A stretch of DNA of 51,184 nt, taken from NCBI GenBank assembly GCA_017427775.1, contig JAFRSD010000016.1, forward strand, positions 1 to 51,184, in the 5' to 3' direction. A program made the position numbers and the translations under genes. The stretch's first letter is position 1, and the number at the start of each line of letters is the position of its first letter. Origin of the DNA: Lachnospiraceae bacterium (lineage in GTDB: Bacteria > Bacillota > Clostridia > Lachnospirales > Lachnospiraceae). This document shows positions 35,423 through 50,541 of this stretch, one piece after another. The notes below the pieces were generated by a model. That model searched no databases. It was not told the DNA's origin and saw only the letters and a program-made list of their open reading frames with translations.

Positions 35423-38338
35423 TCAGTGAATGAACTTCACGCTCAGCAGATGTCCGCTTCCGCCGCCGACCTTTGTGAGATACAGTGCCGATACGCCGTC
35501 CGGAATCGGGCAGACTGCACGGTACTTCTCCCAGATGTCAGAGGAGTCGACTTTGACGGTTCCGATAACGGGTCCATTGATCTCGGTACGAACCTCAAAG
35601 CTGTCATGGATGTAACCGCGAACGGTCAGTTCAATCTCCTTCACACCCTTGAAGTTGATATACTTGAAACCGATGGTCGTGCCGGTTCCGATGTTCGCAA
35701 TATAAGATGGACCCCTATCCCCGTCCCTACCGTCCATCGTGATGCGCGGCTGGTTGCCGATTCCGACAAGCCAGTGCATCGGCTCCTTGATGTCAGGTGC
35801 GAACAGGTTGCAGGCGATGTGTGCCGGAATCTCGTCGGTATCACGAAGCGGTCCGCCGTTCAAGCCGCAGGAAGTGATCTCAACCTGCTTGATGGAACCG
35901 TCGGCTGCAAACTTCACTTCCTCGGCACAGCCCTGACGGGAGTACCAGGTCGCGTTGGTCTGGCGATGGTAGAAGATGTAACGCTTTCCGGCAATCTCGA
36001 TCAGACTTCCGTGGTTGTTTGCGCCGTATGCAGCAGGCGTCTCCGCATCCTTATAGGTGTCGATGTGGAAGTCGCTGTTACTTACGATTACGCCGCCGTA
36101 GGTGAACGGTCCCTCGGGGCTGTCGGAGGTTGCGTAGCAAAGTTCATGCATCACTTCGCTGGAGTAGATGAAGTAGTATTTACCGTCGAACTTACGGATC
36201 GAGCTTGCCTCGAAGAATGCATGGCCTTCAAATCCGGTGCCTTCGCTGTAGCAGGAACCCGGAACGACGATGCGCGGATCCTTCACAATCGTCAGCATAT
36301 CCGGTCCGAGAACGGTCAGCTGGGAACCGTGACGGCTCTTGTCTCCTCTTCCGCAGAAGCCGGTGAACAGGTACGTCGTATCACCCTCGGTCAGTACGCC
36401 CGGATCGAACTGCGGCTCGTCGCCTTCGCGCTCGCCGAGCTTCGTGCCGTCTGCGTAGTGAACATAGCCGTAGAATTCGTATCGGCCTGCAGGCGTATCG
36501 CAAACCGCTACCGAAACGATGCCGACCTTGTCAAGCACATAGTAGAGGTAGTAACGTCCGTCGGGACCTACCGTTACGTCGGGCGCGTACAGAACCATGT
36601 TGCCTCTTGAGTTAACCGGATCCTGCGTCTTCAGGTAGGTAACGCCCTCATAGCGCCAGTCGCCGAGGTTGTTAATCGGCGCGGACCAGCATACGTAATC
36701 ACCCTGGCAGAATACGTAACCGTTAAACTGGTCGTGGGAACCGTATACATAAACGCGGTCGCCGAACACATACGGCTCACCGTCCGGAATGAACTCCCAG
36801 TTCGGCAGGTACGGGTTGTAAGCCTGCTTGCGCTCCGGAACCGTCTGGTCGGTGATGACGCCGATCATGAAGTCGTTGAACGGCTTGTTCTCATAGCTCG
36901 GAACACAGCCCTCTTTGAGGAAGTTCATGCCGCAGTGGGAACCGGTTCCATAAGGCTTCCAAACCGGCATGTCGGTACCGTCGGCATCCTTGCCGTTCGG
37001 GTCGCCGGTCTTAATGAAGTTCGTCAGGTAGTTACACATCTGGCGGGCCAGATCGAAGTGATAGCCCTTGAACGGTCTCCAGCAGGCTGCCAGTGTCTCA
37101 AAGAAGAACCACAGGTCAACTGAGTGGAACGTGCCGGGGTTGTCCCAGCCCGGAATATCCGGATTGAAATTATAGTAATACGAAGGTGCCTCGTTGTGGG
37201 CAAATGCGGCCTTGATCGCGCACTCCAGTCCGTCGGTCGGTGCGAACATCTTGCCGTTACGCACATGTGCCTCGGGGAAGGACATGAACTCGTCGTATTT
37301 GTCTCCAAGCGCAGCTTTCGCTTTCTTCTTGTAGTCTTCCTCGTCACTTGCGAAGACCGCTGCCTTGAACTCGTCTCCGGTGTTACCGGAGATCATCGGA
37401 ACGTTCGCATGCTCACCCTTCAGGAAAAGGATGTACGGATCCTCGATCATGAATTTGTGATCGATCGTCGGAGCGAAACGCGGGTGGGACTGGGCGAATT
37501 CGCTGTATTTGTCCCGGATATAGAAAGCGTCGAGCGCTCTCGCCTCCTCAAGCGTCTTCACACCGAGGAACTCGAAGAATGCTTCGCCGTTCGGCTCGTT
37601 TGCTTCGATCGTGCGGGGCGTGATGAAGCCGTCCAGCATGTAAGGGCTGCGGATCATGCCGCTGTGTACGATTGCCTTCTGGAACAGGCCGATGCTCTGC
37701 GGGCTCGTCAGCTGGTTCATAACGCTTCCGCCGCCTGCGGACTGTCCGCCGATCGTAATATTGTTCGGGTCGCCGCCGAATGCCTTGATGTTGCGGATAA
37801 CCCACTTGATACCTGCCTGCTGGTCGAGGTTACCGAAGTTGGTCGGAGCCTCGGGCGACTCTTTCGTGATCTCGGGATGCGAGATGAAGCCAAATGCACC
37901 GAGACGGTAGTTTACGCTGACAAATACAACGCCTCTTTTCGCGATGTTCTCGCCGTTGAATTCCATCTCCGGCGGGTAGCCCCACTGGAATCCGCCGCCG
38001 AAGAACCATACGTAAACCGGCAGATTGTCGGTGTCGCTCTTCGCGTTGGTCCATACGTTCAGGTACAGGCAGTCCTCATCCATCGGGATGTCCGGATCCA
38101 CATGCCACTCACGGCAGTAGATGTCGGTGCCGACGCCGGGCTGGTCCTGCATCGAGATCGGGCCGAAACTGAAGCAGTCACGCACGCCTTCCCAATCGGC
38201 TGCGGGCTGCGGCGCACGCCAGCGGTTCTTTCCTACCGGCGGTGCGGCAAAGGGAATCCCCTTGAATACGCTGATGCGGGTGTTGTTGCCCGGCAGGCCG
38301 CGTACCATACCATTTTCCGTTTTTACTACTTTTAACAT
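35423..38338 (-). CDS. Carboxylesterase fused to a GH43 glycosidase with a C-terminal beta domain
   Basis: The 971-residue protein has no signal peptide. Residues 1-505 are a type B carboxylesterase: oxyanion loop GGGFQWG, nucleophile Ser200 in GGQSAGGGS, likely acid Glu323 (NTGDEFK) and likely His405 (GTFHSVDLWFFF). Residues 510-820 are a five-bladed GH43 propeller: YLPNWEFIPDGEPYVFGDRV with the base Asp, LYAPDVTVGPDGRYYLYYV, and a likely acid in FFEASSIRKFDG. Residues 830-971 look like a CBM6-type beta-sandwich. This suggests removal of an acyl (acetyl or feruloyl) group and of arabinose or xylose from imported oligosaccharides, but the exact specificities are inferred. AAGGAGG lies upstream of ATG, and a promoter at 38380-38408. 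Confidence 0.9.
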   Translation of the reverse strand: MLKVVKTENGMVRGLPGNNTRISVFKGIPFAAPPVGKNRWRAPQPAADWEGVRDCFSFGPISMQDQPGVGTDIYCREWHVDPDIPMDEDCLYLNVWTNAKSDTDNLPVYVWFFGGGFQWGYPPEMEFNGENIAKRGVVFVSVNYRLGAFGFISHPEITKESPEAPTNFGNLDQQAGIKWVIRNIKAFGGDPNNITIGGQSAGGGSVMNQLTSPQSIGLFQKAIVHSGMIRSPYMLDGFITPRTIEANEPNGEAFFEFLGVKTLEEARALDAFYIRDKYSEFAQSHPRFAPTIDHKFMIEDPYILFLKGEHANVPMISGNTGDEFKAAVFASDEEDYKKKAKAALGDKYDEFMSFPEAHVRNGKMFAPTDGLECAIKAAFAHNEAPSYYYNFNPDIPGWDNPGTFHSVDLWFFFETLAACWRPFKGYHFDLARQMCNYLTNFIKTGDPNGKDADGTDMPVWKPYGTGSHCGMNFLKEGCVPSYENKPFNDFMIGVITDQTVPERKQAYNPYLPNWEFIPDGEPYVFGDRVYVYGSHDQFNGYVFCQGDYVCWSAPINNLGDWRYEGVTYLKTQDPVNSRGNMVLYAPDVTVGPDGRYYLYYVLDKVGIVSVAVCDTPAGRYEFYGYVHYADGTKLGEREGDEPQFDPGVLTEGDTTYLFTGFCGRGDKSRHGSQLTVLGPDMLTIVKDPRIVVPGSCYSEGTGFEGHAFFEASSIRKFDGKYYFIYSSEVMHELCYATSDSPEGPFTYGGVIVSNSDFHIDTYKDAETPAAYGANNHGSLIEIAGKRYIFYHRQTNATWYSRQGCAEEVKFAADGSIKQVEITSCGLNGGPLRDTDEIPAHIACNLFAPDIKEPMHWLVGIGNQPRITMDGRDGDRGPSYIANIGTGTTIGFKYINFKGVKEIELTVRGYIHDSFEVRTEINGPVIGTVKVDSSDIWEKYRAVCPIPDGVSALYLTKVGGGSGHLLSVKFIH

Positions 38339-38452: not shown

Positions 38453-38485
38453 AAAAAAGGCGCCGTTCGTTCGCGGCGCCTTTTT
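38453..38485. terminator. Bidirectional GGCGCC hairpin terminator
   Basis: GGCGCCG pairs with CGGCGCC; A-run on the left and T-run on the right. Ends the surface lipoprotein gene (leftward). Confidence 0.85.
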
Positions 38486-38490
38486 CATGT

Positions 38491-39882
38491 TTATTTTCTT
38501 CTGCCCTCGCCGGGGTTGCCTCTTCCTTCCTTTCCGCCGAACCCGGGATTTCCTTCATTTCCCCATCCGCCGTATCCGGGATTGTTTTCGCCTCCGTTTC
38601 CTCCGAAGCCTCCTCCGCCGAAGTTTCCGCCGCGTCCGCCGCCCATCATCTGATTGGGAAGGTTGCTGACCTGTTGTCCGTTGCAGATGACGGTTCCTCC
38701 GTTAAGCTGTGCGGTTCCGTCATAATCGAAGGTCGAATTGCCGGTCACGTCAATCGTTCCGCCGTTTATGACGATGTTTCCGTTCGAGTCAATGCCGTCC
38801 GTGTCTCCGGGGCCCATGACGACTTTCAGATATCCGTCATTCATTTCAAACGTCGGCGTATAGGCCGTGGACTTTCTTGCGGCATTCACGCCGTCATCCG
38901 ATGCCTGAATCGCAATCTCTCCGCCGTTTATGCGGACGTAGGTCGCCTCAAGCCCTTCGGCTGCCGTGATGTTTATGCTTCCGCCGTCAATCTGCAGCAG
39001 GGCATTGGCATGAACGGCATCGTCCTTTGCCTGAATCGTAAAGCTTCCGCCTGCGATGTAGATGTTTCCGAGCGTGTTGTCTTCATCGTTTTCGCAATGG
39101 AATCCGTCCTGACCGGAAGTGACGGTGAAATCTCCGTCTGCAATCGCCAGACTGTCCTTCGCCTGAACGGCATGATTTCCGGAAGTGATTTCATAGGTTC
39201 CGGACGTAATCGTCACCTCGTCCTTCCCCGCAATTCCGTTCTGCGCGGGAGACGTGATGATCAGTTTTCCGGTTCCGTTCAGGGTGAGATCGTCTTTGGA
39301 AAATACGACGGCATCCACATTGTTCTCGTCCTCGTCCCGGAACGTGCCCCCGTTTTTCAGTCTGTTCACGGTTCCGTCCGCAAGGGTAAGGAACACCTTA
39401 TCGGCCTGCAGGACGTATATTGCCGCGAAATCGGAAGAGGTGATGTCCGCTCCGCTTAACACAATCTGCACCTTATCCTCCTTATCGGCATCCACATAGA
39501 CGGTGCCGTCGGTAAGCGTTCCGGAAAGGATATAGGTTCCTGCTTCCGTGATGGTTGCGTTGCTTCCGCTCACCTTCACCGAGGAGGCCGACGCCTCTAT
39601 GGACGAACCGGACAAAACGATGCTGACCGCTCCCTCCGCGTCATACCCGTTTGTGAGATCCCTCTCGGAGAATGCTGCGGCGAACATGCTTCCGGACTCT
39701 CCTCCGTCGACAGCAACCATGCCGGATGTGCCGGAGTTGTTGCCGGAACCGGCCGAAGCCGTCTTCGGAACAACGTCCGTTATTTGCTCTTCATTGCCTG
39801 TTTTGCATGCCGCAAGAAGCATGGCAAGGATCATGATTACAACAAGAAAAATACTGTATCTCTGTTTTTTATTCTGTTTCAT
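38491..39882 (-). CDS. Surface lipoprotein with carbohydrate-binding (DUF4353-like) right-handed beta repeats
   Basis: The 463 residues start with a lipoprotein signal (MILAMLLAAC, Cys26), then a Gly/Ser linker and from about 75 on repeated parallel strands (DGTVYVDADKEDKVQIVLSG, TYEITSGNHAVQAKD, GGSINITAAEGLEATYV, DGIDSNGNIVINGG). This matches the carbohydrate-binding DUF4353 proteins that accompany CotH, VTC and DUF4956 genes in clostridia. The last 50 residues are Gly/Asn/Pro-rich (GGGFGGNGGENNPGYGG). GGAGG lies upstream of ATG 39882. The direct repeat at 39964-39982 is upstream of it. Probable binding of a surface glycan or polyanion; not tested. Confidence 0.85.
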   Translation of the reverse strand: MKQNKKQRYSIFLVVIMILAMLLAACKTGNEEQITDVVPKTASAGSGNNSGTSGMVAVDGGESGSMFAAAFSERDLTNGYDAEGAVSIVLSGSSIEASASSVKVSGSNATITEAGTYILSGTLTDGTVYVDADKEDKVQIVLSGADITSSDFAAIYVLQADKVFLTLADGTVNRLKNGGTFRDEDENNVDAVVFSKDDLTLNGTGKLIITSPAQNGIAGKDEVTITSGTYEITSGNHAVQAKDSLAIADGDFTVTSGQDGFHCENDEDNTLGNIYIAGGSFTIQAKDDAVHANALLQIDGGSINITAAEGLEATYVRINGGEIAIQASDDGVNAARKSTAYTPTFEMNDGYLKVVMGPGDTDGIDSNGNIVINGGTIDVTGNSTFDYDGTAQLNGGTVICNGQQVSNLPNQMMGGGRGGNFGGGGFGGNGGENNPGYGGWGNEGNPGFGGKEGRGNPGEGRRK

Positions 39883-39915
39883 TTTGGGAACCTCCGTTTC
39901 TCTGTTTTCGGCGTC

Positions 39916-39921
39916 ATTGTA
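39916..39921 (-). promoter_or_regulatory. -10 box of the surface lipoprotein gene, -35 poor
   Basis: TACAAT (read leftward) with no good -35 (GGGATT at the 17-base position), which suits an activator-dependent promoter; the response regulator site is 42 bases further upstream. Confidence 0.5.
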
Positions 39922-39963
39922 TCATTTTCCGCGGCCGGAATCCCCGAAAAGCTCAGGCAGAAA

Positions 39964-39982
39964 ATACGAAATTCATACGAAA
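39964..39982 (-). promoter_or_regulatory. Candidate response regulator site, perfect 8-bp direct repeat
   Basis: On the leftward strand TTTCGTAT-gaa-TTTCGTAT, an 11-bp period typical of OmpR/PhoB-family sites. The same TTTCGT pair at 11 bp occurs upstream of the VTC gene (42172-42197). Confidence 0.7.
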
Positions 39983-39983
39983 A

Positions 39984-40007
39984 GAGCGCCGACGAATATC
40001 GGCGCTC
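39984..40007 (-). terminator. Terminator behind the histidine kinase gene
   Basis: GAGCGCCGA pairs with TCGGCGCTC; leftward it is followed by TTTTCG. It adjoins the direct repeat, so the two elements share this short spacer. Confidence 0.7.
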
Positions 40008-40025
40008 CCGAAATATTATCAGTCC

Positions 40026-41375
40026 CTACTGCGGGAAGGCCGCTTCAAAAACCGCCCCGTTCTCGTTGTATGCGTGAATCTTCCCGTGATAGCTTTCCGT
40101 CACGGACTTCGCGATGGCGAGCCCGATTCCGTGCTGGCCGTCGTTTCCTTTGTAGAACCGCTCAAACACATACGGAAGATCCTCCTCCGCGATTCCCTCC
40201 CCGTCGTCGCTCACGCGGATTGTAATGCCGCCGTCCTGCTTCCGACAGAAAAGGCGGATTTCCCGCTTCGCGTAGCGCACCGCGTTGGAAATCAGATTAC
40301 CGCACAACCGCTCCGCATCCTGGTCCCGGATTGCCGCCAGAACCGGCTCGTCGTCAAAATCGAAGGAAAATGTGAGGTTCCGTTTTTCCGCTTCCGCGCG
40401 CTGCTCGGATACGCACAGGGAAAGAACATCCCGCAGATCAATCTGCTCCAGGGCTTCTTCCGGTCTGCCTTTTCCCATTCGGGACAGATAAAGGATATCC
40501 TCCACCATGCCGGCAAGCTTGTCGGATTCCGACAAAATGACCGCGCCGGCGCTCTTCGGCTCCATGACGCCGTAAACGATACCCTCCGCATTGCCTCTTA
40601 TCGAAGTGAGAGGCGTCCGCAGCTCATGAGACACATTCTGGAAGAACGTCTCCTGCTTCTGCTTCGCTTCCCGGAGTTCGGCTGCCATCCGGTTCATGGT
40701 ATTTCCGAGCTCATCAAATTCCCGGTCACGGAAGGCAAGTTCCTTCGGTGAAAGATTTCCCCTTCCGATTTCCGATGCAAAATCCGACAGGCGCTGCACG
40801 GGTTCCGCAAGCGTTTTCGCAAGCGCTCCGCTCAGGACAACCGATAAAAGAACGGCCACCGCGATGACAATCAGCAGAACGAGGTTGATTCTTTTCGCAA
40901 ATGCCATGATGGAGGTGACATCCACATAAACCAGGATGGTTCTTCCGCTTTCCGCGGGATCGGCTATCGTGGAAACGGCAAATGTTCCGCTGCTTAAAGC
41001 GGCCGTTTTATTCGAAATGTCCCCGGCCTGATTCAGCCCCTGATACCACTCCGCAAGCTCCGTCGCAATCTTGTTGTCTCCGTGAAGATTGAACTCGAGG
41101 TTTCCTTTTTCATCCAGAATGACCGCATTTCCCCGCGTTCCGGTAATCTTATCCGGATGCTCATTGAACGGATCCGGGTTCATCCGGGGACCGCGCTCTT
41201 CCCTTCTGATTTCCGTGGCGCTTCGCGACACCAGATCAAGCTGCGAGGACACACGCGCGCGGATGTATCCTTTCACGGAAAGATTGAAGGCAATCGCCAC
41301 AACAACAAGAATCAGGCAGGTCAGACCGGTCATGGTGACTAACAGTCGGGTTTTGATATGCCATTGTTTCTTCAT
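40026..41375 (-). CDS. Sensor histidine kinase
   Basis: ATG 41375 overlaps the response regulator stop (ATGA) with GGAGG upstream. 449 residues: helix TM1 (about 11-34), an outside sensor domain of about 130 residues, TM2 (about 165-190), HAMP, HisKA with phospho-His near 250 (FFQNVSHELRTPLTSIRGNA) and an ATPase domain (NLISNAVRYAKREI, VSDDGEGIAEEDLPYVFERF, GIGLAIAKSV). The sensor domain has ERGPRMNPDPFNEHPDK. The signal is unknown; the genes around it suggest cell-surface or phosphate-type stress. Confidence 0.92.
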   Translation of the reverse strand: MKKQWHIKTRLLVTMTGLTCLILVVVAIAFNLSVKGYIRARVSSQLDLVSRSATEIRREERGPRMNPDPFNEHPDKITGTRGNAVILDEKGNLEFNLHGDNKIATELAEWYQGLNQAGDISNKTAALSSGTFAVSTIADPAESGRTILVYVDVTSIMAFAKRINLVLLIVIAVAVLLSVVLSGALAKTLAEPVQRLSDFASEIGRGNLSPKELAFRDREFDELGNTMNRMAAELREAKQKQETFFQNVSHELRTPLTSIRGNAEGIVYGVMEPKSAGAVILSESDKLAGMVEDILYLSRMGKGRPEEALEQIDLRDVLSLCVSEQRAEAEKRNLTFSFDFDDEPVLAAIRDQDAERLCGNLISNAVRYAKREIRLFCRKQDGGITIRVSDDGEGIAEEDLPYVFERFYKGNDGQHGIGLAIAKSVTESYHGKIHAYNENGAVFEAAFPQ

Positions 41376-42073
41376 TTTGCTTCCTCCAGGCGGAATCCGA
41401 AGCCCCAAACCGCGGTGATATTTGCCCCGCATTCTCCGAGCTTCTGCCGAAGACGCCGAACCGTGTCATCGGTTGCCCTTGTCTCCACAACACTCTCGAA
41501 TCCCCAGACCGTATTCAGCAGTTCTTCCCTCGAAACGGCCCGATCGGCATGAAGCATCAGGTATTTCAGGACTTCGTACTCTGTCGGTGTCAGGGAAAGC
41601 GGGTTCCCGTCCTTCAGAATGCGGCGCCGCTGCTCATCCAGCCTAAGTCTTCCCACCGCAATTTCAACCGAAGATTCCGTCCCGTGCTTCTGGCTTTCGA
41701 AATCGATTCGCCGGAAAATAGCGCGAACCCGCATTAGAAGCGCCATGGCGGAAAAAGGCTTCGTAATATAATCATCGCTTCCGAGACCGAGACCCATCGC
41801 GTAGTCATTTTCCGAATCCCGCGCGGTAAGCATGATGATCGGGACCGTGCTTGTCTTTCGTAACTCCGTGCATATTGCAAACCCGTCAGAGCCGGGCATC
41901 ATCACATCAAGAATGACCAGATCGCACGGTTTCTGCAAAAACCGCTCAAGCAACAGGTCTCCGGTCGGGAAATCTTCCGTCTCGTAACCGTCATTCGCGA
42001 GAAAGGTTCTGACAACCTGACGAATGTTGTCATCATCGTCCGCAATATAGATTCGTTTTGCCTCATCTGCCAT
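41372..42073 (-). CDS. OmpR-family response regulator
   Basis: I chose ATG 42073 because a longer frame would start upstream of or inside the promoter (-10 at 42102-42107). 233 residues: receiver domain with acidic pocket ADDDDN, phospho-Asp56 (LVILDVMMPG), Lys105 (YITKPFSA) and a winged-helix output domain (LSLTPTEYEVLKYLMLHAD, ETRATDDTVRRLRQKLGE). It is followed by the overlapping kinase gene. It is divergent from the VTC gene, and the TTTCGT repeats lie in the shared spacer. Confidence 0.92.
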   Translation of the reverse strand: MADEAKRIYIADDDDNIRQVVRTFLANDGYETEDFPTGDLLLERFLQKPCDLVILDVMMPGSDGFAICTELRKTSTVPIIMLTARDSENDYAMGLGLGSDDYITKPFSAMALLMRVRAIFRRIDFESQKHGTESSVEIAVGRLRLDEQRRRILKDGNPLSLTPTEYEVLKYLMLHADRAVSREELLNTVWGFESVVETRATDDTVRRLRQKLGECGANITAVWGFGFRLEEAK

Positions 42074-42101
42074 ACTGGATGTCTCCTCCGTTTTTTCTTT
42101 C

Positions 42102-42130
42102 ATTATAGCGGCGAAAACGGAATCTGACAA
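42102..42130 (-). promoter_or_regulatory. Sigma-A promoter of the two-component operon
   Basis: Read leftward, TTGTCA (42130-42125) and TATAAT (42107-42102) are 17 bases apart. Confidence 0.88.
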
Positions 42131-42171
42131 TGGGTTTCCCCTTCGAAAACTGCCGCAATTCATACGAATGA

Positions 42172-42197
42172 TTTCGTGTGTTTTTCGTAAATTTCGC
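42172..42197 (+). promoter_or_regulatory. Candidate response regulator site upstream of the VTC operon
   Basis: TTTCGT occurs at 42172 and 42183 (11-bp period) and TTTCGC at 42192. A -10 TACAAT (42239-42244) with no proper -35 follows, at nearly the same distance as at the lipoprotein gene. It could also serve the divergent regulator gene. Confidence 0.65.
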
Positions 42198-42273
42198 ACC
42201 TTTTTCTCGGAGATTTCCCGCTCTTTCGGAAGTATCATTACAATCGTAAAAGCCAAAACGAAGGAGGCACTCC

Positions 42274-43002
42274 ATGTGTAAAATACAAAGCTGTTTCAAC
42301 CGATATGAAAAGAAATACCTGATCACCAAAGAACAGTACCGGGCGGTAAAACTTGTCATGTCCCCGTATATGCGTCCGGATGAACATCCCCGTTATTCCA
42401 TCCGAAACATCTATTATGACACGGAAGACTACGAACTGATCCGCTCATCCCTGGAGAAACCGGTTTACAAAGAAAAGCTGCGGCTTCGCAGCTACGGCGT
42501 GCCCGGCAACCAGGACACGGTGTTCGTGGAATTGAAGAAAAAGTATGACGGAGTCGTCTATAAGCGGCGCATCACGGAGCCGTTACAGGAGGCCGTCCGG
42601 TTTCTTAACGGACAGCAGCATGAAAACAGTCAGATCGGCCGGGAAATCGAATGGTTTTTGAAGTATTACCGCCCGGTTCCGAAGGCGTTCATCGGGTATG
42701 AGCGCGAGGCCTGGGCATCCCAAACCGACAGCGAGTTGCGCATCACTTTCGACACCGCTTTGTGCGGCCGCAGTGACAGCCTCGATTTGCGCTCCGTCCG
42801 GGGCGGCTGCCCTCTGCTTCCCGATGACCTGATTCTGATGGAAATCAAGATTCCGGGAGTCGCGCCGATGTGGCTTGCCGGTCTTCTCTCCCGGCAGGGA
42901 ATCTTCCCAACCACATTCTCAAAATACGGTGCTTACTATCAGAAATACATATTGCAAAGCAAACCCGACACTTTCACGAAGGAGGTCATTCTCAGTGCTT
43001 AA
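42274..43002 (+). CDS. VTC-domain protein, putative polyphosphate polymerase
   Basis: The 242 residues make up a single VTC tunnel domain (PF09359-like), like yeast Vtc4 without its SPX and membrane parts. Basic and acidic tunnel residues are in place: Lys13-Lys14 (YEKKYLIT), YKEKLRLRSYG (66-75), VELKKKYDGVVYKRR (85-99), YEREAW (142-147), Asp160, MEIKIPG (189-195) and FSKYG (215-219). Vtc4 makes polyphosphate from ATP; bacterial members are mostly untested and often adjoin DUF4956 and CotH genes. AGGAGG lies upstream of ATG. First gene of a four-gene operon. Confidence 0.87.
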   Translation: MCKIQSCFNRYEKKYLITKEQYRAVKLVMSPYMRPDEHPRYSIRNIYYDTEDYELIRSSLEKPVYKEKLRLRSYGVPGNQDTVFVELKKKYDGVVYKRRITEPLQEAVRFLNGQQHENSQIGREIEWFLKYYRPVPKAFIGYEREAWASQTDSELRITFDTALCGRSDSLDLRSVRGGCPLLPDDLILMEIKIPGVAPMWLAGLLSRQGIFPTTFSKYGAYYQKYILQSKPDTFTKEVILSA

Positions 43003-43660
43003 TACCATTTTCAACGGATTCGAAATTACGGTGTCTTCATTTTTCATCTGCACGGCAGTGTCTCTGGCACTCGGGCTCGGGACGGCTCTGATCGGCATGT
43101 TCCGTTCCAAAAGCTCACGCAGTTTTCTTCTTACACTCGCCATTCTTCCCGCGATGGTGCAGCTCATCATCATGCTGGTGAACGGAAACATCGGCGCAGG
43201 TGTAGCCGTGGCCGGCGCCTTCGGGCTGATTCGCTTCCGAAGCGTCGCAGGGAGCGCAAGAGAAATCGGGCTGGTATTTCTCGCCACCGCCATCGGTTTA
43301 GCGACCGGAATGGGGTATGTGATTCTTGCGGCCGTCTTCTTCCTTCTCATTGCTGCTTACATGCTTCTGTTGACGCTAATCGGTTTCGGCGCGGGTTCCG
43401 CTGCGGAGCGGGAACTCAAAATCACGATTCCGGAAAATCTGGATTACGAAGAGTTGTTTGACGATTTGTTTCGGAAATACACGAAGAACGCCGAACTAGA
43501 CCGGGTCAAGACGACCAATATGGGAACTCTGTACGAGCTCAGCTATAAGATTCTGCTTCGTGATTCTCACGAAACCAAACAGTTCATGGATGAAATCAGA
43601 ACACGCAACGGGAACCTTACCGTTGTCTGCGGAAGACCGGTTGTGAAAGAGACTTTGTAG
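42995..43660 (+). CDS. DUF4956 membrane protein
   Basis: GTG 42995 is nine bases after GGAGG and overlaps the VTC gene by 8 bases; longer frames to 42875 start inside the VTC gene. 221 residues: about four membrane helices in the first 135 residues, including the family core GAFGLIRFRSVAGSAREIGL, then a cytoplasmic ferredoxin-like end (TTNMGTLYELSYKILLRDSH). DUF4956 is a steady companion of bacterial VTC genes. It may anchor the VTC protein and move the product across the membrane, in analogy to the yeast VTC membrane part; this is inference. Confidence 0.87.
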   Translation: MLNTIFNGFEITVSSFFICTAVSLALGLGTALIGMFRSKSSRSFLLTLAILPAMVQLIIMLVNGNIGAGVAVAGAFGLIRFRSVAGSAREIGLVFLATAIGLATGMGYVILAAVFFLLIAAYMLLLTLIGFGAGSAAERELKITIPENLDYEELFDDLFRKYTKNAELDRVKTTNMGTLYELSYKILLRDSHETKQFMDEIRTRNGNLTVVCGRPVVKETL

Positions 43661-43673
43661 GAGAAGGCAAGAC

Positions 43674-44615
43674 ATGAAATCCTTTATGAAACGCTGCCGT
43701 CACGGAATCATTTCGGGCGTTTTGATCACATTTTTCACGGGATATGCGCTTCTTGACGTGTTCGTCATCCCGCGGAATTACGGAAAAGCGGACGTCCCGT
43801 CTGCCGGGCTTTCGATATCGAAAAGCGGGGAGGACGAAAGCGAAACTGCGGAAACGTTTTCGAACACGGACGACCCAGTTGTTACCGACCTCTCTTATCG
43901 GGACGAAAACATCTCCGTCGTGATTACGCAATACCGCGTGAACGATACCGACGTTTATGTTGCCGATGTAACGGTGTCGTCTCCGGAGTACCTGTTTTCG
44001 GCATTTGCCAAGGACACATATGGGCGGAACGTGAAGGAAACCGTGTCCGAAACAGCGGACCGCGTCGATGCGATCCTGGCCGTTAACGGGGACTTTTACG
44101 GTTCCCGAACCGGCGGCTATGTCATTCGGAACGGCATCCTCTATCGGAATGTTTCCGCGAAAAATGAAGACCTCGTATTATACCAAAGCGGCAAAATGGA
44201 GGTCGTTAAGGAGTCTTCAGTTTCCGCCGACAATCTGCTCAAAGACGGTGCCGTGCAGGTTTGGTCCTTCGGTCCCGGATTACTGAAAGACGGCGAGATT
44301 ACCGTATCGGCAAGTCAGGAAGTCGGAAAAGCGAAGGCATCCAATCCCCGCACTGCTGTTGCGCAGCTTGGTGAAAACCATTATCTTTTTGTTGTCAGTG
44401 ACGGGCGGACCGGCGACAACGACGGCCTCACCCTGTATGAACTGGCACAGTTTCTGCAGACACTCGGCGCGCAAACCGCTTATAATCTCGACGGTGGCGG
44501 ATCGTCCACCATGGTCTTTATGGGAGAGGTCATCAACCACCCCACCACAAACGGTCGGAACACATCGGAAAGGAGCGTGAGTGACATTGTATGCATCGGA
44601 TATCGAAAGGAATGA
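43674..44615 (+). CDS. Phosphodiester glycosidase (NAGPA-domain) exoprotein
   Basis: The 313 residues begin with a membrane anchor (about 10-32), an acidic spacer (SKSGEDESETAETFSNTDD) and a NAGPA domain with AVNGDFYGSRTGGYVIRNG (about 135-153), NPRTAVAQLGENHYLFVVSD and YNLDGGGSSTM (about 270-280). The family hydrolyses or modifies N-acetylglucosamine-phosphodiester bonds in glycans, exopolysaccharide and teichoic acid-like polymers. It lies 13 bases behind the DUF4956 gene. Acting on a phosphodiester-linked surface polymer would fit a VTC neighbourhood. Substrate not known. Confidence 0.87.
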   Translation: MKSFMKRCRHGIISGVLITFFTGYALLDVFVIPRNYGKADVPSAGLSISKSGEDESETAETFSNTDDPVVTDLSYRDENISVVITQYRVNDTDVYVADVTVSSPEYLFSAFAKDTYGRNVKETVSETADRVDAILAVNGDFYGSRTGGYVIRNGILYRNVSAKNEDLVLYQSGKMEVVKESSVSADNLLKDGAVQVWSFGPGLLKDGEITVSASQEVGKAKASNPRTAVAQLGENHYLFVVSDGRTGDNDGLTLYELAQFLQTLGAQTAYNLDGGGSSTMVFMGEVINHPTTNGRNTSERSVSDIVCIGYRKE

Positions 44616-45030
44616 TTGCTCCGGGGACCAATCCCGGGAAACGTTGCAGCTCCGCTATTTCAGAGCTGCAAGGAATTATGTTCTGATTGCCCTTGCGGTG
44701 GCCGTATTCGGCGCCGTCTATGAGCATTTCAGCTTTGGCGTATACTCATACTATATGATCTATGCTTTTGCCGTTCCGCTTGTGTGCGGTGCTTTGCCGG
44801 CGCTTCTTCTGCCGTTCTGCAGGCGGATTCCCGCCTTTAACGGATTCGCGGGAAAGCTATGGCGTGACGGAATCGCCGTATGGACCGTCGGTTTCCTTTT
44901 TACGGGCGTAGTCCAAATCTACGGAACGGACAGCGTCTGGTCAAAGGCTTATGCCATAGCCGGCCTCGCCTTATATGCAGCCTCCGGCATTGCAGCGCTG
45001 CTTCGTGAAACCGGGGCGCAATCCCTGTGA
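44581..45030 (+). CDS. Small four-helix membrane protein in the VTC operon
   Basis: GTG 44581 is after AAGGAGCGTGA and overlaps the glycosidase gene end by 35 bases. The 149 residues have about four membrane helices (YVLIALAVAVFGAVYEHFSF first) and a soluble N-terminus of 28 residues. I know no family. Tight overlap argues for coexpression with the VTC unit. No terminator is seen between it and the convergent gene ending at 45054. Confidence 0.72.
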   Translation: MTLYASDIERNDCSGDQSRETLQLRYFRAARNYVLIALAVAVFGAVYEHFSFGVYSYYMIYAFAVPLVCGALPALLLPFCRRIPAFNGFAGKLWRDGIAVWTVGFLFTGVVQIYGTDSVWSKAYAIAGLALYAASGIAALLRETGAQSL

Positions 45031-48195: not shown

Positions 48196-50541
48196 TTACT
48201 GCATCCACCACAGCTGGTCCGCAATGGTCTTGTAGTAATTGTTATTTAAAATCGCACGCGAGATGTTGAACTTGTTCCGGACAATCGTCTTGTAGGAATC
48301 GAGGTACATCTTCTTGTATCCGTCGTCCCAGGTGTCTGCGCCGAGCAGCCACTCCGCTTTGCCGGTGTTCGCGTTGTAACGGACATAATCGGTTATGAAA
48401 CTGCTGTCCTTAAACTGAATGAGACCGAGGGAATCGGAGAAGATATCGGTACCCATGTACAGTCTCGAATCGTACTCGATACCCATCAAGTTCAGAACGG
48501 TAGGCAGAATGTCAAGGCTGCATGCCGCTTTCGTGATCGTCTGCGGGCGGATGTTCGGATTCCAGATGATCAGGTATTCCTTATACCGCTCGAAAGTCGG
48601 ATCGATCTTGTGCCCCGCGAGTTCGTTACGTGATGCCTCGGGAAGACCGTACGGATAGTGGTCGCCGGACATAACGATCAGCGTATTGTCAAGAACGCCG
48701 GCCTCGTCCAGTTTGGTGATCAGATAGTTGACCGCGTTCTCTAACTCGATATTGCAGGCGAGATAGCATTTGGCCTGTTCGCTGTAAGGAAGGTCTTTCA
48801 CCTCGTTACGGTGCTTGCGGCCCATCGCGTTATCGCCCCACTCATATACCATATGACCGCTCATGGTCATGAAGTATGCGTGGAAATGTTCCTCATTGAT
48901 GAACATCGGAATCGCCTGCTCCATCATCTCAAGGTCGGATTCCGGGAACTGCTCGGTAATGTTCAGACCACGGCCGCGGGCGATGAATTCATAGCCCATG
49001 TTGGGGTGGGATTTGTCGCGGTCATAATAGGTCGCGGAATGGTTGTGGAACGCATACGTTTTGTAGCCCATCGCGTTATAAATGTGTCCGAGGCAGCAGG
49101 CCATCACGTTTTTGGAAGAACGGCTGAAGCTGCTTGACTGCTGGATATCCGGAAGCAGACCCGTGCACACCGTGTATTCGCCGTCACTCGTACTCGTGAT
49201 CCAGTAAGGCGTATAGAAATTGTCAAAGTAGAATCCGCTGTGAACCATGCGGTAAAGCGTCGGCGTCGTATCCTCCCGGATTGCCAGCGGATGGAACGTC
49301 TCGCAGGTCATAACGATGAGGTTATAGCCTTCGAACATGCCGGTGTATTCGTTCTTGTTGGTCGGCGTCACATTTGCCAGATATTCGTTGATCGTCTTGA
49401 TCGAGCTGTTGGTCGACGTCGAAGCCATATAGCTGAAATCGAGATCGAGCACATGCGGCGAACGGTCAACCGGGGTCGGTGTCGGCGTCGGCGTAGCAAG
49501 CGGATCACGGTTCGGATCGGGCGTCGGCTCCTCGGTCGGAACCGGTGTCGGCGTCGAGATCGGCGGAGGAACCGGAAGCGGATCGACGTCGATAACGACC
49601 TCACCCACCGCCTTCTCGTCGTAAGTGATCACGCGGCACACATCCTGGATCAGGCCGACCATAATGCCGTTCTGGCGAACGCCGCGGTCGGGCTGCCACT
49701 CTTTATAAAAAGCATTGAATCGTCCGTTCAGACGGGATCCTTTGCTGTCGATCATGGAAAATACGATACCTGCACACAGCGCTCCCATCCCGACAGCGCG
49801 CAACATAAACCGGCCGGGAAGTCTCTTATGACGGTATCCTGCCTTCCAGCGAAGAACCGCATACGCGGCAAGCGGAACAAGAAGCAGCAGAACAAGCGGA
49901 AATCTCGACCAGAGCGCACCCACGCCGGCCTTCCAGAATTCCTTCGCGTCGCCCGCATTGCCCATTACGGAAAATGTAAGATAGTTATTAAATATCGCGT
50001 GATAAGTAGCCTGCACGCTGAACCATACGGTGATCGCGCCGAGCATGACCCAGGTTACGATCTTGGATGCAAAATCCTTCAGGAACCCGGTCGCAGCCGC
50101 ATACAAAAAACCGATCGCAGCCGCAAAAAAAAGAATATAGAAAACAGAACTGTCGTGTATTCCCTTATTCAGATAGATATGGAACATCACCTCGTCCCAC
50201 ACAAGAACGGCCGAGGGAAGGAACAACTGCAGCAGCACCGAACGGAAGGAGAATCGCTCCTTCTTCTTAACCGGCGGTGCATCCGGCAGATCATCAATGG
50301 ATTCTTTGAGAACATCCGGGAGGGAGGTCTCATCGAAGAGGATGGTGTGGAGGTTGAGGGCAGTTTCCTGAGAATCGCCGTCAACGGAATCACCGTTCAC
50401 GGAATCCTCGATCGATACCACTTCCGACAGATCGCCGATAGCATCGTCCTCGGCGTCCGCCTCGTCCGGAAAAGCGTTGTATATCACGCGCTCGTCGTCA
50501 AGAATCTCCTCCAACTCTCTGTTGTTCTTACTATCCGACAT
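48196..50541 (-). CDS. LtaS-like membrane sulfatase-fold protein (phosphoglycerol/teichoic acid type)
   Basis: The 781 residues have a very acidic cytoplasmic extension (1-95, many Asp/Glu), about five membrane helices (100-275), a Pro/Thr stalk (about 325-360, PTPVPTEEPTPDPNRDP) and an outside sulfatase-fold domain (about 400-780). Motifs match LtaS: metal Glu in VMTCETFHP, catalytic Thr in ITSTSDGEY, and Asp-His in MSGDHYPYG. Such enzymes transfer glycerol-phosphate to lipoteichoic acid or other surface glycans, or cleave such polymers. It is longer than S. aureus LtaS (646) mainly from the extension and stalk. AGAGG lies before ATG. Confidence 0.85.
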   Translation of the reverse strand: MSDSKNNRELEEILDDERVIYNAFPDEADAEDDAIGDLSEVVSIEDSVNGDSVDGDSQETALNLHTILFDETSLPDVLKESIDDLPDAPPVKKKERFSFRSVLLQLFLPSAVLVWDEVMFHIYLNKGIHDSSVFYILFFAAAIGFLYAAATGFLKDFASKIVTWVMLGAITVWFSVQATYHAIFNNYLTFSVMGNAGDAKEFWKAGVGALWSRFPLVLLLLVPLAAYAVLRWKAGYRHKRLPGRFMLRAVGMGALCAGIVFSMIDSKGSRLNGRFNAFYKEWQPDRGVRQNGIMVGLIQDVCRVITYDEKAVGEVVIDVDPLPVPPPISTPTPVPTEEPTPDPNRDPLATPTPTPTPVDRSPHVLDLDFSYMASTSTNSSIKTINEYLANVTPTNKNEYTGMFEGYNLIVMTCETFHPLAIREDTTPTLYRMVHSGFYFDNFYTPYWITSTSDGEYTVCTGLLPDIQQSSSFSRSSKNVMACCLGHIYNAMGYKTYAFHNHSATYYDRDKSHPNMGYEFIARGRGLNITEQFPESDLEMMEQAIPMFINEEHFHAYFMTMSGHMVYEWGDNAMGRKHRNEVKDLPYSEQAKCYLACNIELENAVNYLITKLDEAGVLDNTLIVMSGDHYPYGLPEASRNELAGHKIDPTFERYKEYLIIWNPNIRPQTITKAACSLDILPTVLNLMGIEYDSRLYMGTDIFSDSLGLIQFKDSSFITDYVRYNANTGKAEWLLGADTWDDGYKKMYLDSYKTIVRNKFNISRAILNNNYYKTIADQLWWMQ

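Follow-up and report, generated by a model that had tools for sequence, protein, structure and literature searches.

A divergent VTC–DUF4956 locus in a Lachnospiraceae genome as a possible split polyphosphate system with a separate glycosidase pair

We analysed a stretch of 51,184 nt, contig JAFRSD010000016.1 of the Lachnospiraceae assembly GCA_017427775.1 (hereafter the window), for a locus that combines a VTC-domain protein and a DUF4956 membrane protein with a predicted phosphodiester glycosidase of the NAGPA family, a small membrane protein (SMP), a two-component system and a surface lipoprotein. Its genes are as follows.

38491..39882, minus strand: Cthe_2159-family beta-helix lipoprotein (Pfam PF14262, E 5e-82)
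40026..41375, minus strand: HAMP/HisKA/HATPase sensor kinase (Pfam; start read from the sequence)
41372..42073, minus strand: OmpR/PhoB-type response regulator (Pfam Response_reg and Trans_reg_C above cut-off)
42274..43002, plus strand: VTC-domain triphosphate tunnel enzyme, candidate polyphosphate polymerase (PF09359, E 3e-40)
42995..43660, plus strand: DUF4956 membrane protein (PF16316, E 7e-14)
43674..44615, plus strand: NAGPA phosphodiester glycosidase with an N-terminal membrane anchor (PF09992, E 2e-38)
44581..45030, plus strand: SMP, partner of NAGPA, 149 aa, with three hydrophobic segments

The minus-strand genes for the regulator, kinase and Cthe_2159 protein diverge from the plus-strand genes VTC, DUF4956, NAGPA and SMP at a gap of about 200 nt, and the former share one divergent promoter region with the VTC–DUF4956 core. 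The VTC, DUF4956 and NAGPA proteins, two-component system and surface lipoprotein named in the original prediction are all present, each with a Pfam match above cut-off; its statement that the operon genes overlap holds for VTC and DUF4956 (8 nt) and for NAGPA and SMP (up to 35 nt), but not for DUF4956 and NAGPA, which lie 13 nt apart. The DUF4956 gene most likely starts at GTG 42995, giving 221 aa, and most of its relatives have 222–239 aa. The open reading frame (ORF) of the kinase was listed as 40026–41432, from ATG 41432, but ATG 41375, in an ATGA overlap with the regulator stop, is the likelier start; that of the regulator spans 41372–42256, with a likely start at ATG 42073. Rfam and tRNA scans gave no match, and a search for direct repeats in the plus-strand operon found none.

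The window VTC protein matches 181 of 299 genomes of the family at E ≤1e-10. In two of these the VTC row is identical to records of Ca. Galacturonibacter soehngenii and Hungatella hathewayi, labels that place the family in the Lachnospiraceae. By hand count, 145 of the 299 hold a window-type VTC, defined by an E below 1e-25, and the remainder match at about 1e-11 to 1e-18. Within the window's own genus this type occurs in one of 22 genomes (own match, E 5e-101); of the other 21 genomes, 20 have weaker matches only (best 1e-25) and one has none. For comparison of neighbourhoods we assembled a pool of 143 rows, comprising the window, two more loci, 60 loci (the 40 best matches after the window and 20 spread below, of some 150) and 80 further loci (the best 80 of 561), so that close relatives are over-sampled. 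Neighbours were counted within 5.5 kb on both sides of VTC in 76 distinct loci including the window, which were left when duplicates were dropped from 82 well-flanked ones. DUF4956 lies near VTC in 75 of the 76, and the last locus (L143) also has it, lost to the overlap filter: VTC and DUF4956 are a conserved two-gene core. Many Clostridia have this core together with the lipoprotein and the sensor pair. Cthe_2159 is found in 62 loci, a regulator–kinase pair in 29 (a real pair being required, since the kinase profile also catches regulators), NAGPA in 8, seven of them with SMP and L066 without, and CotH in 3. The conservation that the original prediction expected of the whole set thus extends to the core, but not to the exact set with NAGPA, in view of these 8 loci and the single genome of the genus with a window-type VTC. 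Its proposal that the glycosidase stands in for CotH was rejected, since most VTC loci carry neither; the usual partner is Cthe_2159, and NAGPA–SMP is an independent pair.

In the nearest relatives whose flanks are long enough (L112, L113, L115, L116, L119 and L121), the Cthe_2159, kinase and regulator genes again diverge from VTC–DUF4956, and NAGPA–SMP is absent. A quick VTC tree places the window among metagenome-assembled genomes (MAGs) labelled mostly Oscillospiraceae by their submitters (support by the Shimodaira–Hasegawa-like approximate likelihood ratio test, SH-aLRT, 95 and 97), with one row of the window's clade labelled Lachnospiraceae. This position, together with the rarity of the type in the genus, suggests that the VTC gene was transferred into it. 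Four loci from MAGs labelled Oscillospiraceae or Eubacteriales (L131, L146, L150 and L186) carry CotH, VTC, DUF4956 and Cthe_2159 together and link the CotH form of VTC loci to the Cthe_2159 form. A small alarmone synthetase-type gene was seen in four distinct VTC loci (L077:10094-10711, L076:4907-5521, L235:5091-5702 and L052:7468-8205). The L077 gene, RelA_SpoT by Pfam, sits between DUF4956 and Cthe_2159, and the other three fall in the BLAST cluster of its protein.

The window VTC protein consists of the VTC domain alone (242 aa, no hydrophobic segment), and its predicted structure displays a Vtc4-type tunnel fold. Loss of the tunnel residues, which the original prediction had named as counter-evidence, was not seen: the basic tunnel residues, the metal-binding Glu and the catalytic Lys are kept. 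Equivalents of Vtc4 K200, R264, R266, K281, K294, R361 and R373 are aligned; those of E426, K428 and K458 were placed by motif and order only, with weak support. A profile alignment of VTC with CYTH proteins scored 0.4% and failed to align. Synthesis of a polymer from ATP is predicted for this protein.

DUF4956 comprises a five-helix membrane part and a ferredoxin/ACT-like C-terminal domain (model pLDDT 83), and the family has an invariant RFRS stretch. Comparison with MgtC by hhalign gave 92% over 196 columns spanning both the membrane and the C-terminal parts, with controls at 0.2 and 0.3%. The Pfam MgtC profile matches 16 of 30 DUF4956 members at E up to 10 (best E 0.042, below cut-off) and is not in the Pfam list of the window protein itself. 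A search of the PDB returned one match only, at E 0.31, and the ACT-like fold match of the C-terminal domain, for which MgtC 2lqj was the reference, is common to many unrelated proteins and was dropped as specific evidence. On these profile comparisons, DUF4956 is predicted to be a distant MgtC/SapB-type protein. At L106:7794-8247, DUF4956 is present as two separate ORFs (82 and 77 aa).

These properties invite a different reading of the core, in which VTC would be a tunnel tri- or polyphosphatase, or act in some other way on nucleotide triphosphates, and DUF4956 would regulate ATP or phosphate homeostasis in the manner of MgtC, the two forming a phosphate- or energy-stress module that exports nothing. 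The MgtC likeness fits such a role, as do the alarmone synthetase-type genes at four VTC loci, and the invariant E12, which is acidic like its counterpart in tunnel hydrolases but stands in the place of T198 of Vtc4, corresponds to one Glu of the hydrolase acidic patch, a placement deduced from PMC4641920. However, R10 and K192 of the window protein stay basic, its model is clearly nearer in fold to the yeast VTC proteins than to any listed hydrolase, and the commonest third partner of the core is a surface lipoprotein. We consider this reading unlikely.

Binding of calcium or polygalacturonate is attributed to Cthe_2159. The window member of the family has a lipobox-like LAAC, a Gly-rich tail and solved relatives (4peu/4phb, E 3e-33), and, counting duplicates, 63 of the 104 Cthe_2159 proteins near VTC have a lipobox-like motif. 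The response regulator is PhoB/RpaB-like, yet below NCBIfam cut-offs. Three elements around these genes may concern their expression.

38454..38485, either strand: intrinsic-terminator-like hairpin past the Cthe_2159 gene, usable on both strands (13-pair stem and T tail; the scan as a whole found 10 such hairpins against 9.1 expected, not above shuffles)
42102..42130, minus strand: promoter-like TTGTCA-17-TATAAT for the regulator–kinase–Cthe_2159 operon (11 of 12 consensus positions; the scan as a whole found 6 against 4.2 expected in shuffles, no clear excess)
42171..42207, plus strand: repeat box, candidate binding site of the response regulator (TTTCG at 42172, 42183 and 42192; TTTCT at 42203)

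The units of the box follow one another in steps of 11, 9 and 11 nt, and its core could be aligned with seven relatives picked for the same divergent layout. The exact TTTCG pair is kept in six of the eight aligned promoters including the window, the repeats of L113 and L121 being altered. In the host genome the box pattern gave one exact match and one with three mismatches, against none for the reversed control; the mismatched copy, on contig C19, was set aside because it lies within the end of an ORF resembling, by eye, a recombinase. PhoB-like regulators bind 11-nt repeats, and it is a fair inference from this that the TTTCG box is the candidate site of the regulator. Of 142 loci, 6 carry an exact TTTCG pair spaced by 9–12 nt ahead of VTC, and all six belong to the window's clade or to the clade next to it; the box is therefore clade-specific, and other VTC loci must be regulated otherwise.

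The host genome (2.63 Mb, estimated 99.94% complete) contains a second VTC–DUF4956 pair, which has CotH behind it and MBOAT and DHHW genes ahead of it. In this second set (L014:5684-13810) the MBOAT and DHHW/AlgX-like genes suggest polysaccharide acetylation near CotH. The absence of CotH asserted in the original prediction is right for the locus and for the window contig (C12), where a search of the host genome found none, but not for the genome, which has two CotH genes, on contigs C11 and C13, one of them beside the second pair; a broader CotH profile added no more. Five NAGPA matches, three SMP genes and Cthe_2159 genes at three places were also found. No PPK1 or PPK2 match was found in the host genome, and the VTC proteins are the only candidates for a polyphosphate polymerase found there.

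NAGPA enzymes act on sugar-1-phosphodiesters. The window protein has one hydrophobic segment (residues 12–30), solved relatives (6u11, 3ohg and NAGPA 6pki) and the DGR and NLDGGGS motifs conserved in the alignment (NLDGGGSST in the window), which make it a predicted phosphodiester glycosidase. SMP has no Pfam family above cut-off, a lenient search giving scattered weak matches, and was found in 44 of the 299 genomes. Of 30 SMP loci retrieved, the window among them, 29 have NAGPA beside SMP on the same strand, three of these only as a fragment; in the thirtieth, the contig breaks off at the locus. The majority of SMP genes are remote from VTC, and NAGPA–SMP is an independent pair. A plasmid search with NAGPA gave 16 records, all below 60% identity, and was not used.

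Chance proximity to VTC was nevertheless rejected: in a hand-entered table of 37 genomes, eight SMP genes have a window-type VTC at no more than 10 kb, where 0.36 would be expected (P 5e-9; 1e-7 if the window is left out). In the NAGPA tree the ten VTC-linked rows need ten label changes, which may be gains or losses, at least eight of them across well-supported branches, against a shuffled mean of 8.9, so that VTC linkage is not clustered; in the VTC tree ten linked rows need nine. The window NAGPA is sister to the contig C9 copy of its own genome (support 99) and that of L088 to another copy of its own (support 97), whereas the L066 copy has a long, uncertain branch. The sister copies would fit a repeated joining of NAGPA–SMP to VTC from resident copies.

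The original prediction saw a single machine for making, exporting and trimming a polymer rich in phosphodiester or phosphate, with NAGPA as the trimming enzyme. The operon layout over 42274–45030 and the repeated VTC/NAGPA linkage speak for it, including L234, where VTC, NAGPA and SMP follow one another with no DUF4956 seen on a contig that ends 3 kb after VTC. However, NAGPA is absent within 5.5 kb at 68 of the 76 distinct VTC loci, and plain polyphosphate offers it no glycosidic bond, which makes this account improbable.

In 15 of 24 NAGPA–SMP loci viewed with wider flanks, NAGPA is immediately preceded by a GT2-type gene (gap ≤16 nt), which overlaps it by 4 nt in 8 of the 15; GT2 is also present in the VTC-linked loci L053, L066, L103 and L135. 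The two tested by Pfam, one of the 15 and one from a VTC-linked locus, are GT2-GtrA/DPMS fusions. Next to a GT2-GtrA protein, NAGPA would naturally act on an undecaprenyl-phosphate-sugar. No GT-C enzyme was recognised at these loci by crude hydropathy and eye, and an ORF with at least seven hydrophobic segments occurs in only 3 of the 15. The pair might accordingly handle undecaprenyl-phosphate-sugar outside the cell, in carrier-lipid rescue or GT-C-free sugar transfer, sharing regulation and no substrate with VTC–DUF4956; the distance of most SMP genes from VTC agrees with this. Against it, the repeated VTC linkage suggests more than shared regulation, and no GT2 is seen beside the window pair: neither GT2 nor a GtrA flippase or GT-C was among the Pfam-scanned window neighbours (the remaining window genes were not scanned). 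We rate this possibility as rather unlikely.

The reading towards which we lean, tentatively, is that the locus is a bacterial VTC system in split form, which makes polyphosphate and may also export it, with NAGPA–SMP as a separate module. Using cytosolic ATP, VTC would synthesise polyphosphate or a closely similar polymer on the inner side of the membrane, and DUF4956 would take the chain at a basic loop and move it across the membrane, the job of the fused three-helix segments in yeast. Cthe_2159 would bind or organise the exported polyanion, probably with calcium, and the response regulator, bound to the TTTCG box, would switch both gene arms together. NAGPA–SMP, presumably recruited from a copy of the kind already in the genome, would be a module that acts on glycosyl-phosphodiesters outside the cell and at other loci often goes with a GT2-GtrA-type GT2, the putative maker of undecaprenyl-phosphate-sugar; in the same envelope response, NAGPA would most likely cleave or transfer the sugar at a sugar-1-phosphodiester. 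Several observations weigh against the polyphosphate system proposed here. Within 5.5 kb, 14 of the 76 loci show no Cthe_2159 and 47 no regulator–kinase pair; neither an SPX domain nor fused membrane segments were found in the window VTC protein, and its E12 is acidic; and to our knowledge no MgtC protein is a demonstrated channel. PPK1 is present in 243 of the 299 family genomes, so VTC is not generally its substitute, and window-type VTC is only mildly enriched where PPK1 is missing (35 of 56 against 110 of 243, odds ratio 2.0, p 0.026; counted and entered by hand).

A bolder version appears quite doubtful to us, namely a clostridial two-gene polyphosphate synthase-translocase (VTC with an MgtC-like DUF4956 channel) that exports to the surface under its own sensor, a beta-helix lipoprotein holding the polymer and NAGPA–SMP acting as a new extracellular pair that decorates or anchors the product via lipid-phosphate-sugars. 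The layout in the window predicts coupled synthesis and export, and VTC-domain proteins are widespread in the family. Should the proposed split VTC system prove real, many Clostridia would carry polyphosphate on their surface as a regulated polymer, a function could be assigned to the MgtC-like DUF4956 family, and there would be a plausible phosphate donor for the secreted CotH kinases that elsewhere lie beside the same pair.

Beyond the locus, a single 971-aa ORF at 35423–38338 of the window joins carboxylesterase and GH43 glycosidase parts to a CBM6 match that stays below cut-off. About 3 kb past the operon, 48196–50541 encodes a membrane-anchored sulfatase-fold protein, which we take to resemble lipoteichoic-acid synthases.

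In the accessible portion of the open-licence literature, DUF4956 is named, and we found no tested function for it or for any bacterial VTC-domain protein, nor a paper joining phosphodiester glycosidase, undecaprenyl and glycosyltransferase. CotH, VTC and DUF4956 are already known as a gene set (PMC7112168); the Cthe_2159-centred form, the MgtC link, the promoter box and the repeated NAGPA–SMP linkage were not met in that portion.

Undecaprenyl-phosphate-sugars and the usual GT-C transferases are described in PMC8035078 and PMC11898649. NAGPA–SMP resembles the CsbB-GtcA-YfhO-type glycosylation systems (PMC8035078) in being coupled elsewhere to GT2 genes, but has no recognised GT-C beside it and, in the window, no GT2. 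The hydrolase UshA, which acts in this sugar system according to PMC11898649, resembles alpha/beta hydrolases, unlike NAGPA, which the main text of that paper does not mention. From the MgtC/SapB family, DUF4956 differs in its sub-cut-off Pfam match, and the fold match of its C-terminal domain is shared with many unrelated proteins. The window Cthe_2159 protein shares the beta-helix domain of its Clostridium thermocellum relative (4peu, 4phb) but is encoded with a VTC system.

With the eukaryotic VTC complex (Vtc4/Vtc3/Vtc1; PMC9911596), the window system has in common the polymerase tunnel fold and tunnel residues and, as proposed here, a membrane partner whose cytosolic entry is basic. It differs in having no SPX, a separate MgtC-like membrane gene, the bacterial cell membrane as its site and, as yet, a candidate activity only. 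Among bacteria, the cotH-PPP-DUF4956-DUF4832 accessory genes beside Pel clusters (PMC7112168) likewise pair a VTC-type polyphosphate polymerase gene with DUF4956. In NELoc-2 (PMC2879425), the gene after each VTC gene encodes a membrane protein about as long as DUF4956, annotated as 'tubulin/FtsZ' (222 and 226 aa), and these genes may be misnamed. Both sets include CotH, whereas in the window type, whose locus here is without CotH, the VTC–DUF4956 pair usually goes with Cthe_2159 and a two-component system.

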